A DNA stretch of 21,205 nucleotides from a virus. Where the stretch lies: IMG/VR virus record IMGVR_UViG_3300032048_000640, positions 1-21,205 of that record; one strand, 5' to 3'. Numbering within the stretch: the stretch's first letter is position 1; each line of letters starts with the position of its first letter. The notes under the pieces were generated by a model. That model made no database searches. It was not told the origin of the DNA and saw only the letters and a list, made by a program, of their open reading frames with translations. Of this stretch, positions 259-18,986 are shown one piece after another. Both the position numbers and the translations under genes were made by a program.

Positions 259-637
259 CGCTCCGCGGCGGCGGGTGGTGAATGTGACGCGGGTTGGCGA
301 CTATGGGGGTGTCCGGTGGGTGCATCGGTTGGATTGTGGTCATTCGGCTGTTCGGAAGCGCCGTGGGGGTGTCCGGTTGGGGTGTGTGGAGTGTTTGGGG
401 GCGCGCGAGTTTGAGTCGTTTAGTCGCGAGTTGGTGAAGGCACCGCCGCCGGTTGTTGATGACGGGTTGGCGGAGGCTGAGGTGGAGGCTGCTAGTTTGC
501 GGGCGTTGGTGGCGGGCCGGTTGGGGGTTCCGCAGGAGCAGGTTGAGGTTGTCGTTGGTGTGGCTGCGAATGGCCGGTTGGGGGTCCGGTCGGGTTGGGT
601 GTGGTTGTCTGCTAGCCAGTTGCGGTCGGTTTTGTAA
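242..637 (+). CDS. Small putative zinc-binding phage protein (131 aa)
   Basis: The chosen start is GTG at 242 because a GGAGG (233-237) sits about five bases upstream; an earlier in-frame GTG at 194 lacks such a site and would give an Arg-rich, unlikely N-terminus. The protein has a CGH motif (Cys32, His34) followed by a CVEC motif (Cys48, Cys51), a pattern that could hold one zinc ion as a treble-clef or ribbon-like knuckle. An alanine/glutamate-rich helical segment and a hydrophobic C-terminus follow. Small proteins with a Cys-Gly-His and a CxxC pair are common in actinophages and usually have no assigned function. It converges with the methyltransferase gene on the other strand and overlaps it by 26 bases at the 3' end. 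Confidence 0.65.
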   Translation: MPSPRNAPRRRVVNVTRVGDYGGVRWVHRLDCGHSAVRKRRGGVRLGCVECLGAREFESFSRELVKAPPPVVDDGLAEAEVEAASLRALVAGRLGVPQEQVEVVVGVAANGRLGVRSGWVWLSASQLRSVL

Positions 638-1259
638 ACACGAGGAGTGTTTCGTGGGGGATGCGTTTGTCGGCGTTGGCTCCGTGCGGTAGCCCGGTTG
701 CGGGGATGATGATGGTGTTGGCGGACTGGTAGCCGATCGTTTTGCAGGTGTCGGTGTGCCATTTGGTGACGTGTTGTATTTCGCCACTGCGGATGTGGTC
801 TTTGATGTTGATGATGAGCGTCCCGCCGGGTTTCAGCACCCGTTTTGCCTCAACCCACGCTTCGTTGTGGAGGTGCCGGTAGTCGCTGCCCCATTGCAGC
901 CCGGCGGATGATCCGTTGGCGAGTTTGTGCCCGAGGTAGTGCCGGTAGGTGTGCCGTTTCGAGTCGTCTTTGGCTTCGTGGTGGTCGGCCATACGGTTCC
1001 CGAAGCAGGGTGAGGTGACGATGGCGTCGAAGGTGTCTCGGTCGTATGGGGTGTTGACGGCGTTGCCGACGATCGTGTCGGGGTGTTGCTTCGCCCAGTC
1101 GGGTTCAATTTCGACACCGATGGTGCGGTAGGGGAGTTGGTGTACGGTGCCGATTCCGGCGAACGGGTCGAGAACGTACAGGTCCGGGTTGTCGCCGAGG
1201 ATTTCGACGATGGCGTCTAAGTGGGCTTGGGCAAACTTTGCCGGATGCGGGATAGGCAT
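612..1259 (-). CDS. Phage DNA methyltransferase (SAM-dependent, 215 aa)
   Basis: The protein is a class I SAM-dependent DNA methylase. Residues 31-38 read DPFAGIGT, the SAM-binding motif I of amino-methyltransferases, and residues 82-92 read TSPCFGNRMAD at the catalytic motif IV position. The order motif I then motif IV, with nothing large between them, matches gamma-type N6-adenine or N4-cytosine enzymes. Motif IV is unusual: canonical enzymes have (S/D)PP(Y/F), here the second Pro is Cys. The following stretch with ADHHEAKDDSKR and a later LKPGGTLIINIKDHIR is typical, from memory, of a methylase family frequent in actinophages. The ATG directly abuts the TAA of the upstream gene with no clear Shine-Dalgarno, so it is probably coupled. 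Likely role: marking phage DNA against host restriction. Target base and site cannot be read from the sequence. Confidence 0.85.
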   Translation of the reverse strand: MPIPHPAKFAQAHLDAIVEILGDNPDLYVLDPFAGIGTVHQLPYRTIGVEIEPDWAKQHPDTIVGNAVNTPYDRDTFDAIVTSPCFGNRMADHHEAKDDSKRHTYRHYLGHKLANGSSAGLQWGSDYRHLHNEAWVEAKRVLKPGGTLIINIKDHIRSGEIQHVTKWHTDTCKTIGYQSANTIIIPATGLPHGANADKRIPHETLLVFTKPTATG

Positions 1260-3202: not shown

Positions 3203-3499
3203 TCAGGTAGAGAAGTGGGGTGCCCGCCTCAAAATCATCGGCGTGCCTTCGCCCAGCCATGCACCAAACGTGTTGAACGACAGATAGTCAACAGCGTCCT
3301 CGTAGGACATGCCGTCGCCGCCGAACATCATTCGTTCGATCATCTTCTCTTCGTCATAAACCAGCACCGGAGGAAAGTTGATACGGGCAGCGTATCCGAT
3401 AACGCAACAATCGAAAAAGTCCCGAGCGCCGGGGCCGTCAAAAATGACGGCGTCAGGGTTGACCTCAGCGAAGTCGTCCCAAAACTCTCCTTTTCTCAT
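3203..3499 (-). CDS. Conserved small phage protein (98 aa)
   Basis: The C-terminal two thirds follow a pattern common in phage and some bacterial small proteins of unknown function: an F-D-x-C-x-I-G segment (residues 29-35), a VYDEEKMIERMM helix, then DGMSYEDAVDYLSFNTFGAW. I recognise the family shape but know no activity. The only available start is ATG at 3497-3499, and its A is the last base of the tmRNA CCA end. There is no Shine-Dalgarno before this ATG, because the upstream bases are the tmRNA acceptor stem, while an AAAGGAGAG sits just inside the coding sequence. Translation initiation is therefore odd and may depend on the unprocessed precursor or on a different mechanism. The gene is first in a run of closely spaced genes (PP-loop, ParB-like, 84 aa, methyltransferase). 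Confidence 0.75.
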   Translation of the reverse strand: MRKGEFWDDFAEVNPDAVIFDGPGARDFFDCCVIGYAARINFPPVLVYDEEKMIERMMFGGDGMSYEDAVDYLSFNTFGAWLGEGTPMILRRAPHFST

Positions 3500-3866
3500 G
3501 GTGGAGTCGGGGGGAATCGAACCCCCGTCCGTCGTGTTTCCGCATTTCCCCGTTCGACCGTCCCCGGTTTACGCCGGGTCGGGTGAAGCATTGCTTGCTG
3601 ATGCGACAGAGTGACCATGCTTCATAATCACTCCCTCATATGTTGTGTGCCCGTCTTTCCGGACTGTCGCCCGATTGGATTGACAAGGATCGGGAATCCC
3701 TGTGGGATTTAGATTAGGCAACCCTCCTCTTCGAGAAGAGCAGCGAATTCTGCATCCCAATCGCACGAGTATGAATCGGCGGTTGTTGTTGGTGCCCTGT
3801 TTAGCGAGTCTGAGCAACTCGGGTCGCGGGTAGTGCTTCTTCACGGCGTCGAAACCGATCGACCCC
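3499..3866 (-). ncRNA. ssrA: Transfer-messenger RNA (tmRNA) with encoded CCA
   Basis: The RNA has a tRNA-like end formed by a seven-pair acceptor stem (5' GGGGTCG against 3' CGACTCC), a discriminator A, an encoded CCA, and a T-arm of five G-C pairs around TTCGATT. The 5' end is followed by GGTTTCGAC, the conserved tmRNA 5' signature. The length of 368 bases is normal for a one-piece bacterial tmRNA. Between the tRNA-like ends lie a short reading frame (see tag entry), an adjacent CTCTT/AAGAG hairpin and regions able to form the usual pseudoknots. tmRNA works with SmpB to free stalled ribosomes and to tag the nascent chain; no smpB is seen here, so host SmpB would be used. Phage-encoded tmRNAs are known, for example in cluster C mycobacteriophages. 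The gene heads the leftward operon and has its own strong promoter. Confidence 0.95.
3709..3780 (-). other. tmRNA tag-peptide reading frame
   Basis: Inside the tmRNA, a frame starting with GCC at 3778-3780 encodes a 23-residue tag that begins ADSYSCD, ends EEEGCLI, and stops with TAA at 3709-3711. The frame was chosen because GCC GAT TCA (Ala-Asp-Ser) equals the opening of the Mycobacterium tag, which I recall as ADSHQRDYALAA, and because it sits just after an A-rich single-stranded stretch as expected for a resume site. The tag is about twice the usual length, strongly acidic (seven Asp or Glu residues), and lacks the usual C-terminal LAA degron. A competing frame offset by one base ends in KRRVA and has no resemblance at its start. 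Confidence 0.75.
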
Positions 3867-3875
3867 GTGCCGTCA

Positions 3876-3904
3876 ATCATACCCGATTCGGGCAAAGTCG
3901 TCAA
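3876..3904 (-). promoter_or_regulatory. Sigma70-type promoter for the tmRNA operon
   Basis: Reading leftward, TTGACG (3899-3904) and TATGAT (3876-3881) are separated by exactly 17 bases; each hexamer has five of six consensus bases. The tmRNA 5' end at 3866 lies nine bases beyond the -10 element, so the transcript can begin at or within a few bases of the mature RNA. The same promoter may feed the genes down to the methyltransferase. Confidence 0.8.
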
Positions 3905-3964
3905 CAGCCGATTTGCAATCGTCAAGCATTTACGATAAACTACTTGAACGGATCACCAAAGGGG

Positions 3965-3994
3965 TTGTCACACATAATCCCTACACTGTATGTA
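3965..3994 (+). promoter_or_regulatory. Weak candidate promoter for the GHKL-metzincin gene
   Basis: TTGTCA (3965-3970) is a fair -35 element; 18 bases later TATGTA (3989-3994) is only a partial -10 match. It lies just upstream of the plus-strand gene and points towards it. The 153-base gap between the divergent tmRNA and GHKL genes must hold a rightward promoter, but this assignment is tentative. Confidence 0.3.
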
Positions 3995-4019
3995 AACCCC
4001 TATCGAGGAGGCAGTACCT

Positions 4020-5453
4020 ATGAACAAATGGTTTGACGTAGACAAAGAAGGCTTCGGGCAACTCATGGCCGACCGACCAAAGGTCGCCATCCTGCACGAC
4101 CTCATCCAGAACATTCTCGACGAGGACGCCACCGTAGCCACCGTCACGCTGAAACCAATCAGCGGTCGACGCGGCCGGGCGCTCCTCACCGTCACCGACG
4201 ACGTACCCAACGGATTCGCCGACCTGCGCGACGCCTACACCCTGTACAAGGCATCCCGAAAGAAGAACGACCCCACCAAGCGCGGCCGCTTCAACGAAGG
4301 CGAAAAGTTCGTCCTATCGCAATGCGACGAGGCTGAAATCGTCACCACCACAGGCGGTGTCCGCTTCAACAAAGACGGCACCCGAACCTCGCTACGGCGC
4401 ACCACCGACCGCGGCTCAACCTTCACCGCCGTCATCCGACTCACCCACGACGAAGTCGCCACCATGTGCGCACAGGTGCAAGCGATGATCGTTCCCGAAG
4501 GAGTCTTCGTCCTCGTCAACGGAACCCCGCTCAAGGGACGCAACGCTATCCGCACCATCGAAGCAACCCTCCCCACCATCATCACCGACGAAGACGGCAA
4601 CCTCACCCGCACCCGGCGAGCCACCACCATCCACATCGACGAGTTGGGCGAAGGAGAAACCCCGCACCTATACGAAATGGGTATCCCTGTCGTCGAAATC
4701 GACACACCATGGCACATCGACGTACAACAGAAAGTGCCGTTGAATCGGGACCGCGACAACGTCACCCCCGCCTACCGGCGTGACCTGCTCGCCTACGTCC
4801 TTGACGAAACCGTCGACCTGCTCACCGAAGACACCGCCGCAGAATCGTGGGTCAAGGACGCCCTCCCTGCCGCCGAAGCAGACACCGTGAGACAGGCAAC
4901 CACGAAAATATTTGGCAAAGGCTGGGTCATCGGCACCCCCGCCGATCGTGAAGCCGACAAGAACGCCATCGCCAACGGCGTCACCGTCGTCGGCGGAGGG
5001 GCGTTGGGCAAAGACGCATGGGAGGCCGTCCGGGCAAGCGGATCAGCAAAACCGTCCGCCGACAAATACTCCCTTGGACACCGCACCGACCCCCGCGGGT
5101 ACAAACCCAAAATGGCAGAAGTGACCCCGTTCACCACCGCCGTCAAAAAGTACGCCCTCAAAGTCTGCAAGTTCCTTCTGGACGAGGACTACTTCGAAAT
5201 CGACCTACAGGACGACAGCCGCTTGCCGTACAGCGGCATGTACTGCGGGCGACGCATCGTCATCAACCTCCACTCGTACAAGAAGATCGAAGACAAAGAC
5301 GAGTTCGGTCGGGCACTCGACGACCTGCTGATCCACGAATGCGCCCATCGGTACAGCGGAGACCACCTCACGATGCAATACATCAAAGCCTGCACCCAAC
5401 TGGGAGCCAAACTGCGAAACCTTCCGACCCGGTGGCGGGCCGAGGTTGGCTGA
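4020..5453 (+). CDS. GHKL (Hsp90-like) ATPase with C-terminal metzincin-like zinc site (477 aa)
   Basis: The N-terminal ~140 residues carry GHKL ATPase motifs in order: an N-box like DLIQNILDE (27-35, Asn31 for Mg, Asp34), TVTDDVPNGF (57-66) in place of the usual DxGxG, and RGRFNEGEKF (88-97) as a lid-type G2 box. A middle region includes QKVPLNRDRDNV (237-248), which recalls the transducer-type loop of Hsp90/MutL/gyrase B proteins. The C-terminus contains HECAHRYSGDH (439-449): His439, His443 and His449 are spaced as in the metzincin HExxHxxGxxH zinc motif, with Glu440 as candidate general base, although the Gly is shifted by one position. A strong GAGGAGG at 4005-4011 fixes the ATG. The gene is alone on the plus strand between two leftward units. 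Role unknown; ATP-driven peptidase, chaperone or defence/counter-defence protein are possible. The ATPase call is firmer than the peptidase call. Confidence 0.82.
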   Translation: MNKWFDVDKEGFGQLMADRPKVAILHDLIQNILDEDATVATVTLKPISGRRGRALLTVTDDVPNGFADLRDAYTLYKASRKKNDPTKRGRFNEGEKFVLSQCDEAEIVTTTGGVRFNKDGTRTSLRRTTDRGSTFTAVIRLTHDEVATMCAQVQAMIVPEGVFVLVNGTPLKGRNAIRTIEATLPTIITDEDGNLTRTRRATTIHIDELGEGETPHLYEMGIPVVEIDTPWHIDVQQKVPLNRDRDNVTPAYRRDLLAYVLDETVDLLTEDTAAESWVKDALPAAEADTVRQATTKIFGKGWVIGTPADREADKNAIANGVTVVGGGALGKDAWEAVRASGSAKPSADKYSLGHRTDPRGYKPKMAEVTPFTTAVKKYALKVCKFLLDEDYFEIDLQDDSRLPYSGMYCGRRIVINLHSYKKIEDKDEFGRALDDLLIHECAHRYSGDHLTMQYIKACTQLGAKLRNLPTRWRAEVG

Positions 5454-15933: not shown

Positions 15934-16950
15934 TTAGAGGATTAGCCATTCCGGATGGTTGTATGTCCACTGCACGGTTTGTTCAAAACTTTTTTCGATG
16001 GTCATCGGCTGTTGCCAACCGGCTTCACGTAGTTTGGTGCCGTCCAAAGAATACCGCAGATCGTGTCCGGGTCGAGATGAGTGGAAGTCCACTAATTCGG
16101 TAATTGGCTCGATTCCGAGGATTTCTCCAACCATCTCTGCTATCTCCAAATTGTTGATCTCTTTCTCGCCAGCAATGTTGAAGCGTTCCGGCTCAGGATC
16201 ATCGTCGCTGTAAGGAATCACTGGAGCATTCTCAAGAATAAATTGCACAGCGTCGCCGTGGTTGCGGGCATGCAACCACACCCGTGCCCCGATCGTCCAC
16301 CCATCCGACCCATCCTTGGCATGAACCTGAATCGGCTCACCGTTCAGGATGCGACTCATCACCATGGGCACATACTTCTCCGGGTGTTGCCGTTCACCAA
16401 AGTTGTTCATCGTGTTCGTAATAATCACCGGCACATCAAACGTTCGCCAATACGAAAACGCGATCATCTCCTGAGCCGCCTTCGAAGCCGAATAGGGATT
16501 TGAAGGACGCAGCACCTCCCCCTCCCGGTGAGAATGACCAACCGGAGCAGGCCCGTACACTTCATCAGTTGAAATCTGAATGAACTTGTCCGGCCTCACC
16601 TCGCGCGCATACTCCAACATATTCAACACCAGAGCAACATTGTTCTCAACAAACGGCACCGGGTCAGTGATCGACCGATCCACATGAGAATCCGACGCCA
16701 TGTTCACAATCCAATCAACTGCACCAATCGAATCCACCAACTGTGGATGAATCGGCGCACGAAGATCATGCCACACCACACGCACACGATCCGGATCAAA
16801 ACAGTCAATGTCAGTCAACCGTTCAACCCGGCCTGAAAACCGCAAAGCGTCCATCACCACGATGTCCCAGTCCGTGTTCTTCAACCAATGCTCGACGGTA
16901 TGGCTACCGATAAAGCCAAGACCGCCTGTCAACAACACGCGCTTACTCAA
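15934..16950 (-). CDS. rfbB: dTDP-glucose 4,6-dehydratase (RmlB/RfbB-like, 338 aa)
   Basis: This extended short-chain dehydrogenase has GGLGFIGS (9-16) for NAD binding, ASDSHVDRSI (85-94), ISTDEVYG (126-133) with the Thr-Asp-Glu triad typical of sugar nucleotide 4,6-dehydratases, YSASK (153-157) with catalytic Tyr and Lys, NNFGERQHPEK (182-192), and RPGHDLRYS (293-301). The length is normal for RmlB (about 340-360). It converts dTDP-glucose to dTDP-4-keto-6-deoxyglucose, the entry to rhamnose and other deoxysugars. Related enzymes on GDP-mannose or UDP-GlcNAc differ in these motifs, so dTDP-glucose is the best guess. TTG at 16950 is chosen as start because GAGGAG lies at proper distance and no better ATG exists. 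It may work with the glycosyltransferase at 9.7-10.8 kb. Confidence 0.9.
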   Translation of the reverse strand: MSKRVLLTGGLGFIGSHTVEHWLKNTDWDIVVMDALRFSGRVERLTDIDCFDPDRVRVVWHDLRAPIHPQLVDSIGAVDWIVNMASDSHVDRSITDPVPFVENNVALVLNMLEYAREVRPDKFIQISTDEVYGPAPVGHSHREGEVLRPSNPYSASKAAQEMIAFSYWRTFDVPVIITNTMNNFGERQHPEKYVPMVMSRILNGEPIQVHAKDGSDGWTIGARVWLHARNHGDAVQFILENAPVIPYSDDDPEPERFNIAGEKEINNLEIAEMVGEILGIEPITELVDFHSSRPGHDLRYSLDGTKLREAGWQQPMTIEKSFEQTVQWTYNHPEWLIL

Positions 16951-17005
16951 CCCAAACTCCTCGACTCGAAAATGGACAAAAAAGCCCCCCTTGTTTTACA
17001 CATTG

Positions 17006-17040
17006 GGTTCTGAACTACCCTTGTGCATTACAAGAGAACC
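17006..17040. other. Composite stem-loop in the noncoding region
   Basis: GGTTCT (17006-17011) pairs with AGAACC (17035-17040), and CTTGT (17020-17024) pairs with ACAAG (17030-17034) directly inside it, leaving an eight-base bulge on one side. It precedes the dehydratase start by about 56 bases on the minus strand. Confidence 0.45.
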
Positions 17041-17079
17041 TTACAACTGGATACCTTAGTCCCCTTCACCAGATCGGTA

Positions 17080-17120
17080 GGTGAGGAGGATTGGCCCTGT
17101 CATGGGACCAACCCTTCACC
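17080..17120. other. Long stem-loop in the noncoding region
   Basis: The arms 17080-17097 and 17104-17120 form about 16 pairs (GGTGA/TCACC at the base, then GG and GG pairs, TTGG/CCAA, CCC/GGG at the top) with single-base bulges and a TGTCAT loop. It is the strongest hairpin of the region. No T-run follows on either strand, so it is not a simple terminator. Confidence 0.55.
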
Positions 17121-17283
17121 GTCACGGCAGGCGTATCGGCGTAGGCACCTAGACCCTCCACACATTGGGGGTTGTTGGTCAGCGGGCATCCACTCGTCGT
17201 CCCGAAGATGTGTGGGTTGAGGTGCTGGCCGCTGCCGGACTCCACCACGATGAGTAGTTCAGATCGCTCGTCAAGACCATCTG

Positions 17284-17320
17284 AGCGTTGAAGGGGAGGC
17301 CCCTCTGACGGGCGAACGCT
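17284..17320. other. Nested stem-loop in the noncoding region
   Basis: AGCGTT (17284-17289) pairs with AACGCT (17315-17320) and encloses a five-pair hairpin AGGGG/CCCCT (17292-17304) with a three-base loop. Confidence 0.4.
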
Positions 17321-17352
17321 AGGCGGTTTGGCCGCACGCTGGTCAGGCGTCG

Positions 17353-17376
17353 CCGACCATGTAGTCCTGTGGTCGG
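17353..17376. other. Stem-loop downstream of terminase
   Basis: CCGACCA and TGGTCGG are perfect inverted seven-base arms around a ten-base loop, about 70 bases beyond the terminase stop on the minus strand. Further GGTC/GACC pairs lie on both sides. It could end terminase transcription, although there is no T-run. Confidence 0.4.
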
Positions 17377-17448
17377 GTCAGGAGACCGGGACCTTAGGCG
17401 CTGGCGAATGACCGTGGTGGTAAAGGCGAGGGTTTTCTTTGTGGCGGG

Positions 17449-18750
17449 TCAGATTATGACTCGGGTTGGGCGTCGATGTCGGCCACCCAGCCCGGCCACA
17501 AAGTTGAATGCTCCCGCTGTCGCATCGATCTGGTCGTCGTGGTCGCATACCTCAGGAAAGGATGCGGCTTCGTCGAGGAAGTCGGTGAGCCATTGATTTC
17601 GGACAAGCCGGACGTTGCCATTTGCCACAGCAGCAGCGAGGGGCTTGGCGCGGACCTCCTTGCTGCCTGTCGACCTGATCCCGATGAAGTCGCAGCCGGG
17701 GAGGACGTATCTGGCGTACTGGTCGATCAGATTCTTGCCTGCCGACCCCGGCTCCTGCTCCATCCGTACTGCTACCTGCGGCCCGTCTTCCTCAGCGGTT
17801 TGAGAAATGAGGTGTTCGATCTTGTCGCCCTTGGCTCGAACTCGACGCACATCGAGAAGGTAGAAGATGCCTTGGTCGAACGCTCCAAGTGCCCCGACGG
17901 TCCAGTCCGGGTTCGGATTGTTGGGTGAAGGTTCAGTGGCGGCGAGGTCCCAGAATCGGACGAACTTCGGGCTGACCCATATGGGGGTTTCGGATTCTTC
18001 GATGATCACGAAGTTTTCCCGGTCGAACAACGACCCCAGTGACGATGCCCACCAGTCGCCAAATTCTAGGCGCTTGCGTTCGATCGGGTCGAGAGCCTGC
18101 AACGCCATTCGGTATGACTCGGCTTCGATGCCGGGATTGTCGTCAAGGGAGGCGGGAACGAAGATGCGCTCGCTGTCTCGCCCTTCGACAATGAACCGTT
18201 GCCTGACCCAGTTGGGCGCAGGGTTTGAGGCGCACCTCATCCGGAGGGGAACCTCCGATAGTTCGCCTGCCTTTGGTCGGCGGAGCCGGGAGAACATGTA
18301 GCGGTAGTCCGCTTCACGAATCTCCGTGACCTCGTCCATGCCCACGAATTGGAACTCTGCACCTTTGTAGCGGAGGTAGTCCTGTGAGTTGTTGAGGTAG
18401 CCGAAGGTGACGCGAGCGCCGGAGGGGAAGGTGGCGACGTAGTTGGAGCCGTTCCAGTGGATGTCGTCATGGGGCTTGACCCATTGGATGAACCTGTCCA
18501 TGAGTGCGCCGGGTAGGGCGAGGTCAGCGAAAGTACGTCGAAACAGGATGGCGGAGTAGTTGGGGATGTCGACGTATTGCATGGCGGCCATGAGGAGGGC
18601 GCTTGATTTACCTCCTCCGGCGCTTCCTCCGTAGAGGGCCTCAAGGTGGTTACAACGCAAAAAAGCGGTCTGTTTGAGCGCAGGGGTCTCAGGACAGTAC
18701 AAAGGTTCTTTGGGTTGTAGGTAGTTGTATATTTTTTCCCAGTCAGTCAT
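17449..18750 (-). CDS. terL: Terminase large subunit (433 aa)
   Basis: The ATPase domain has a Walker A GGSAGGGKS (41-49), a Walker B FQFVGMDE (133-140) with catalytic Glu140, and a coupling-type motif around CASNPAP (173-179). The nuclease domain has FWDLAATE (267-274, Asp268), VRMEQEPGS (328-336, Glu331) and DHDDQIDATAGAF (403-415, Asp406/Asp409), the three acidic sites of RNase H-like terminase nucleases. The motor cuts concatemeric DNA and pumps it into the prohead through the portal. The length is typical. ATG at 18748-18750 has only a poor ribosome site. No small terminase subunit is recognised in the window. The gene is divergent from the portal operon, unlike the usual same-strand order. 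Confidence 0.95.
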   Translation of the reverse strand: MTDWEKIYNYLQPKEPLYCPETPALKQTAFLRCNHLEALYGGSAGGGKSSALLMAAMQYVDIPNYSAILFRRTFADLALPGALMDRFIQWVKPHDDIHWNGSNYVATFPSGARVTFGYLNNSQDYLRYKGAEFQFVGMDEVTEIREADYRYMFSRLRRPKAGELSEVPLRMRCASNPAPNWVRQRFIVEGRDSERIFVPASLDDNPGIEAESYRMALQALDPIERKRLEFGDWWASSLGSLFDRENFVIIEESETPIWVSPKFVRFWDLAATEPSPNNPNPDWTVGALGAFDQGIFYLLDVRRVRAKGDKIEHLISQTAEEDGPQVAVRMEQEPGSAGKNLIDQYARYVLPGCDFIGIRSTGSKEVRAKPLAAAVANGNVRLVRNQWLTDFLDEAASFPEVCDHDDQIDATAGAFNFVAGLGGRHRRPTRVII

Positions 18751-18818
18751 TGGTACACTCTTGTCGGTGCGCTATTTCGTTTCCGCGTCTGGTCGTAGAT
18801 GCGGGTAAGGTCTTGTCC

Positions 18819-18986
18819 ATGAAGACGTTGAGGAAACTTTTGTCAAGGAATGCCATGGCCCACATATTTATGTTGTCTGCCATCATTCTAGTCGGTGTTG
18901 GTATCGGGGGAATAGATGTTCGATATGGTTTGGCGACAGGTGGCACTTTACTTGGCGCGTATGGTTATTTGCTTGGGGCTGAGTAA
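18819..18986 (+). CDS. Small membrane protein, two transmembrane helices (55 aa)
   Basis: ATG at 18819 follows TAAGG at suitable distance; the open frame begins further upstream but without a better start. The product has a basic N-terminus (MKTLRKLLSRN), a hydrophobic stretch (about 13-32, FMLSAIILVGVGIGGI), a short charged turn (DVRYG) and a second glycine-rich hydrophobic stretch (about 38-53), so two membrane helices are likely. The stop shares one base with the portal ATG (TAATG), so it is translated with the portal. Size and topology are holin-like, but the position before the portal is not typical for a lysis gene and no endolysin is seen. Function unknown. Confidence 0.65.
   Translation: MKTLRKLLSRNAMAHIFMLSAIILVGVGIGGIDVRYGLATGGTLLGAYGYLLGAE

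Follow-up and report, generated by a model that had tools for sequence, protein, structure and literature searches.

Attenuators and riboswitch leaders are arranged in an order where a structured domain is followed by a terminator-like hairpin with a U-run and then by the ribosome-binding site. In phage HK022, the structure of the put leader RNA decides whether transcription passes terminators, a case of RNA-mediated antitermination. Among structured RNAs, the wcaG (RF01761) and manA (RF01745) motifs were found in marine metagenomes and cyanophages and the wcaG RNAs were tied to exopolysaccharide genes, according to the part of their description drawn on here (PMC2864571). Phages and prophages also carry GOLLD and ROOL, two large types of structured noncoding RNA which often lie beside tRNA islands, with GOLLD often exceeding 800 bases (PMC12286853, also drawn on in part). 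The portions of the literature consulted mention no noncoding RNA beside a phage terminase and no epimerase leader of the kind described below.

The window analysed here is the whole of a linear virus record of 21,205 bases without end repeats. It contains a 498-base gap which extends from the stop of a terminase gene to the start of an epimerase gene (Table 1). We tentatively read this gap, with a probability of about 0.4, as the 5' leader of the epimerase, a long structured RNA which is made from the minus strand and has a terminator-like hairpin at its end. The leader perhaps acts as an attenuator. The support observed for this reading consists of the position of the gap, a fold excess on the minus strand, a hairpin present in two sequences and hairpins at the corresponding position in a single group of relatives. 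Transcription and read-through of the gap, regulation of the epimerase and any binding of a ligand or a protein by the large domain are inferred.

Setting and structure of the gap

The gap adjoins the terminase as the earlier note had stated, and PHROGs and Pfam both identified the gene at 17449-18750 on the minus strand as the terminase large subunit. On the other side lies a nucleotide-sugar epimerase or GDP-mannose 4,6-dehydratase-like gene (15934-16950, minus strand) which starts with TTG at 16950. Since both genes are on the minus strand, the gap lies on the 3' side of the terminase and serves as 5' leader to the epimerase, and the latter relationship had been missed in the earlier note. 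Gene orientation switches at 18751-18985 and not at the gap. This region is a divergent spacer between the terminase (minus) and the portal (plus), where 2 of 235 positions differ from the related contig L002 and a 78-aa frame at 18750-18986 is without a Pfam match. The description of the window as otherwise gene-packed needs to be qualified, as nine other gaps longer than 60 bases were found in the gene list and one of these (3500-4019) contains a tmRNA. The tmRNA gene is full-length (3499-3866, minus strand, 101 bits in Rfam) and its predicted tag ends in GCLI; the usual tag end is ALAA-like. Among 31 related records, one tmRNA match above the family cut-off was observed, spanning 82 bases.

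Table 1. Positions of features in and beside the gap, numbered along the window
Feature	Position	Strand	Basis
Noncoding gap, terminase 3' side and epimerase 5' leader	16951..17448	-	reading frames, codon scores, families
Conserved core, unlike L002 at 2 of 330 positions	17072..17401	-	
16-pair hairpin of the earlier note, identical in L002	17080..17120	-	
Variable patch, 6 of 8 positions unlike L002	17402..17409	-	
Possible closing helix P1, 5' side (partner 17063-17070)	17419..17426	-	fold
Possible closing helix P1, 3' side	17063..17070	-	fold
Terminator-like hairpin, 22 pairs, in both sequences	16981..17042	-	
Six T (U in RNA) closing the terminator-like hairpin	16978..16983	-	
Epimerase ribosome-binding site GAGGAG	16957..16962	-	read from sequence
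Weak promoter-like pair CCGACA-18-CATAAT, within the terminase end	17453..17482	-	9/12 matches

The stretch 16985-17446 was found to fold more stably on the minus strand (z -3.61, beating 100/100 shuffles) than on the plus strand (z -1.65, with 3/100 shuffles as low). When 90 same-length pieces tiling both strands served as the comparison set, the element on the minus strand was the lowest of 93 pieces (z -4.30, 40 shuffles each), lying about 2.7 standard deviations away from the mean of the window. The piece bearing the tmRNA reached -3.53 and coding pieces went down to -3.69, so the fold value of the element is suggestive and falls short of proof. The excess is located in the 3' half (z -3.00) and is absent from the 5' half (-0.45). 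A possible closing helix, P1, was observed with pair probabilities of 0.44-0.47 in the window, and five of its eight pairs are present in L002's own fold.

Four stem-loops had been proposed in the gap, one of them with about 16 pairs. The latter was recovered with 16 pairs and -23.1 kcal/mol, and such a hairpin is uncommon as 8 of the 5291 44-base pieces of the window, on either strand, fold as well. The best 44-base piece of the gap was equalled in 1/60 shuffles on the minus strand and in 3/60 on the plus strand. The count of four depends on the fold that is chosen; structure beyond chance is on the minus strand.

The terminator-like hairpin is interrupted and leads on the minus strand into six U, and the end of this U-run is located 15 bases upstream of the epimerase ribosome-binding site. 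Hairpin, U-run and ribosome-binding site therefore follow in order on the same strand. The pattern of an intrinsic terminator or attenuator, in which a stable hairpin leads into a U-run of the transcribed strand, is thus present, but the stem is interrupted and a simple terminator scan did not list the hairpin. Ten differences from L002 fall in this hairpin, six of them at paired sites, yet 22/22 pairs are kept in both sequences. Of the five changed pairs, four carry a substitution at one of their two bases and the fifth at both. As four of the changed pairs involve G-U, the pairing holds only as minus-strand RNA. In a simulation, all pairs survived in 415/20,000 random placements and in 842/20,000 with six hits on paired sites, and this evidence from pair retention is partly circular because the fold was derived from both sequences. 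The column-shuffle control (248/500) is uninformative for an alignment of two rows. Conserved base pairing, the lack of which the earlier note had named as refuting its idea, was seen for the end hairpin in a comparison of two sequences, too few for covariation to be proven.

In folds of partial transcripts of the window, residues 17442-17431 at the 5' end of the RNA pair with 17040-17030 in the 5' arm of the hairpin, and this pairing is a possible antiterminator. Three of its ten pairs are lost in L002, which does not fold it, and this argues against a two-state switch. An alternative antiterminator kept in relatives, as expected of an attenuator, was not seen, and the folds of the window and L002 contained no conserved, mutually exclusive one.

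Relatives of the flanking genes

The epimerases in loci L094-L103 are 70-74% identical to that of the window and their upstream neighbour is another gene rather than a terminase. All eight distinct leaders in this group (8/8) have a strong hairpin directly before the ribosome-binding site, with z values of -3.5 to -5.7, whereas 4/53 other gene starts in the same loci reach z <= -3.5. A promoter-like pair with a 17-base spacer was observed 124-141 bases before the epimerase start in 10/10 loci; the same pattern occurs in 120/2000 random 200-base stretches. As this pair lies upstream in all ten loci, the hairpin would be inside the epimerase mRNA. A recurrent other gene (L094, L096, L100 and L101) shows a different order, with the hairpin preceding the promoter-like pair as an ordinary terminator would. 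A consensus promoter of the type found in these relatives was not found in the gap of the window.

Several details of this group were also recorded. The 160-base stretch upstream of the epimerase start in L094-L103 holds a hairpin of 12-14 pairs whose stem sequences vary between groups. In L100 and L101, the gene start at about 1607-1609 is directly preceded by a TTGACA promoter-like pair, and upstream of this pair, at a distance of about 30-80 bases from the start, lies an intrinsic-terminator-like hairpin. Its 3' arm, which reads AAGGGGGGCTTTTTG in L100, closely resembles that of the window hairpin.

The leader hairpin is not general among epimerase relatives. It is missing from the closest ones (L092, L093 and L107, which are 80% identical and share a single distinct leader; z -0.35) and from L104-L106 (z 1.1, 0.9 and -1.3). 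In these last three, the upstream frame stops 11 bases (L104, L105) or 66 bases (L106) short of the match. Overall, 15 of 66 distinct leaders reach z <= -2, a count which leaves out four loci where a start was not found. The 77-base leader piece of L002 itself gives z -1.28.

The terminase relatives were taken as the best 80 of 106 stretches. The element occurs in contig L002 (= L087, also L350), the terminase of which is 98% identical. In the other 79 loci of this set, the terminase is 67-71% identical and the sequence that follows it is unrelated, with no detectable similarity to the element. The objection foreseen in the earlier note, that homologous phages would have an annotated gene here, did not materialise, and the place after the terminase in these 79 relatives consists mostly of open frames. 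The inspection covered 81 rows (80 loci and a duplicate), with 400 bases present in 78; frames of at least 60 aa occupy a median of 91% of these 400 bases and the contig of the element is the lowest at 50%. Seven terminase-adjacent proteins from seven loci were assigned to HTH, ferredoxin, YkuD and, in two cases, DUF932, while two were without a family. Since the post-terminase sequence differs among relatives, the site is variable, and knowledge of the element is confined to a single close pair.

Searches for further kin of the element returned the same contig. BLASTN of the gap against 359 other loci gave the L002/L087/L350 contig as the only true match, and a covariance model of 17070-17245 found this contig alone over 49 records. 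L304 gave a match of 40 bases (E 0.011), which was rejected as chance since a wider comparison gave no further similarity around it. Exact probes of the core, 15-17 bases long, matched 6, 5, at least 119, 57, 7 and 2 stretches in viral_contigs, and an 18-base probe gave 3 matches in genome_contigs. Against named phages and plasmids, a 1001-base query had no match and the core gave matches of at most 37 bases with E >= 1. Neither a second copy nor an antisense target of the element was found within the window, where self-BLASTN gave only matches of at most 19 bases with E > 1. In Rfam, the only relevant match at gathering level on the window was the tmRNA elsewhere, nothing relevant was found in 16851-17548, which spans the gap, with E allowed up to 10, and nothing was found on four related loci.

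The same fold and terminator-like evidence could also describe an independent noncoding RNA, about 460 bases long, which starts near the terminase end (about 17446), is ended by the hairpin and U-run at 16978 and acts in trans, with the epimerase reached by partial read-through. We consider this reading, the main rival of the leader, rather unlikely. The promoter-like pair ends at 17453, at a suitable place for such an RNA, and the phage already has one large RNA gene, the tmRNA. However, the promoter match is weak and falls within codons of the terminase C-terminus (the scan gave 3 sites like it as against 0.8 from shuffles), the hairpin occupies the same position as the leader hairpin seen in a group of epimerase relatives, and no homologue was found elsewhere in genomes within the sequences searched.

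The comparison with L002 bears on whether the gap has a dedicated RNA function at all. The element is 95% identical in L002, with differences at 2/330 positions of the core, at 17/121 positions on the epimerase side (16951-17071) and at 8/47 positions of 17402-17448, six of the latter being in the variable patch. With core limits that were set after viewing the data, divergence of the core is below that of its flanks (Fisher p 7.9e-11) and below that of the third codon positions of the terminase and portal, where 42/1174 differ (p 0.0026). Both differences in the core fall within the loop of a single hairpin in the consensus fold of the two sequences. A stretch of the epimerase differs at 12/171 positions, ten of which are third positions (10/57). 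With divergence so patchy from one part of the contigs to another, some of the contrast could be due to a mosaic joint near 17071. The gap might then be a spacer, a joint between terminase and epimerase modules with an ordinary terminator after the terminase and a core that was recently shared. This is unlikely in our view because the core lies below the third codon positions and the 3' half has a fold excess on the minus strand, even though the patchy divergence, the variable place after the terminase and the limited distance of the fold value from the window mean would all suit a spacer.

Composition and coding potential

The earlier note had suggested a replication origin, a packaging site or an undescribed phage RNA. 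The last of these is favoured by the minus-strand fold excess, the hairpin and U-run in the relative, the lack of a coding signal and the lack of an Rfam family, while origin and packaging gained no positive support. The interpretation thus mainly shifts from a possible origin to a probable structured leader or RNA that is transcribed. A DNA site, either an origin or a packaging (cos/pac) site, is very unlikely. The gap does adjoin the terminase and has the GC-skew minimum, but its strand-specific structure and U-run are not needed by a DNA site, iterons are absent and only two DnaA-box-like words occur, with one mismatch each. The iterons, initiator boxes or AT-rich unwinding stretch of an origin were thus not seen beyond these two words, the GC of the gap being 0.58. 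A 10-base direct repeat was present as described (ACACATTGGG, 16998 and 17160), although it is at chance level since 56/500 shuffles contain a 10-base repeat.

The strand-composition switch was confirmed, as the cumulative GC skew turns within 16751-17250. Third-position skew on the plus strand amounts to -0.29 for the epimerase and to +0.36 for the terminase even though both genes are on the same strand, and composition was also observed to flip in other genes of the window. When read on the coding strand, third-position GC skew is -0.36 in 17449-18750 (minus), -0.55 in 612-1259 (minus) and -0.51 in 4020-5453 (plus), with the other 19 genes at -0.25 to +0.29. These three genes with strongly negative skew may be modules of other origin.

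The gap was also claimed to be noncoding and we agree, as no frame in it scores like the window genes and its short frames match no family in Pfam or PHROGs. Codon scores of the gap frames are at most -0.005, compared with 0.052 to 0.304 for the 22 window genes, and the 95th percentile of off-frame scores is -0.004. One 87-codon frame of the gap gave nothing better than E 9 against named phages. It is highly improbable that the gap encodes one or two small minus-strand proteins (60 or 52 aa). In the window neither frame is interrupted, and the longer one is almost identical in L002. Their codon scores, however, resemble off-frames (that of the 60-aa frame being at the edge of the off-frame range), they are without an ATG start, a ribosome-binding site by eye and any family or phage match, and in L002 a single base is deleted at 17296, within the frame of 52 aa.

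Proposed leader function and known systems

In the leader reading, transcription would enter from the terminase or from the weak promoter at the terminase end. The nascent RNA would fold the large domain (about 17426-17063, with its core inside) and then the terminator-like hairpin with its U-run, which would form 15 bases before the ribosome-binding site. The hairpin would set the amount of epimerase, either through attenuation or as a stabilising or translation-tuning hairpin. Since no consensus promoter lies between the hairpin and the epimerase, the epimerase mRNA should read through and the hairpin can set the epimerase level. No ligand, promoter or conserved antiterminator for the leader was found in this analysis.

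It is also conceivable, though quite unlikely, that the gap represents a new class of large phage RNA (about 360 to 460 bases) which is both an RNA of its own and the switchable leader of a surface-sugar epimerase. In such a dual role, one hairpin would either end the RNA or permit production of the enzyme during infection. Some phages of the lineage carry sugar-nucleotide genes and these may alter the surface glycans of the host. If the leader senses the state of the cell or the phage, it would constitute a new RNA control point over a sugar-nucleotide gene. The promoter and hairpin in the leaders of one group of relatives make RNA control testable.

The gap shares with attenuators and riboswitch leaders the order of their elements; it differs in being without a conserved mutually exclusive antiterminator, and a ligand-binding role of its large domain is putative. 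HK022 put is likewise a phage leader RNA, set apart from the gap by its size and structure. GOLLD and ROOL differ in that the gap has no Rfam match and the window has no tRNA. The likeness to wcaG and manA lies in the setting and not in descent, as far as the consulted part of their description goes, since the gap is directly upstream of a nucleotide-sugar epimerase but neither covariance model matches 16851-17548 at E up to 10. On the parts of the two descriptions drawn on, wcaG and manA are therefore the nearest known systems in setting, and GOLLD and ROOL are the nearest in kind.
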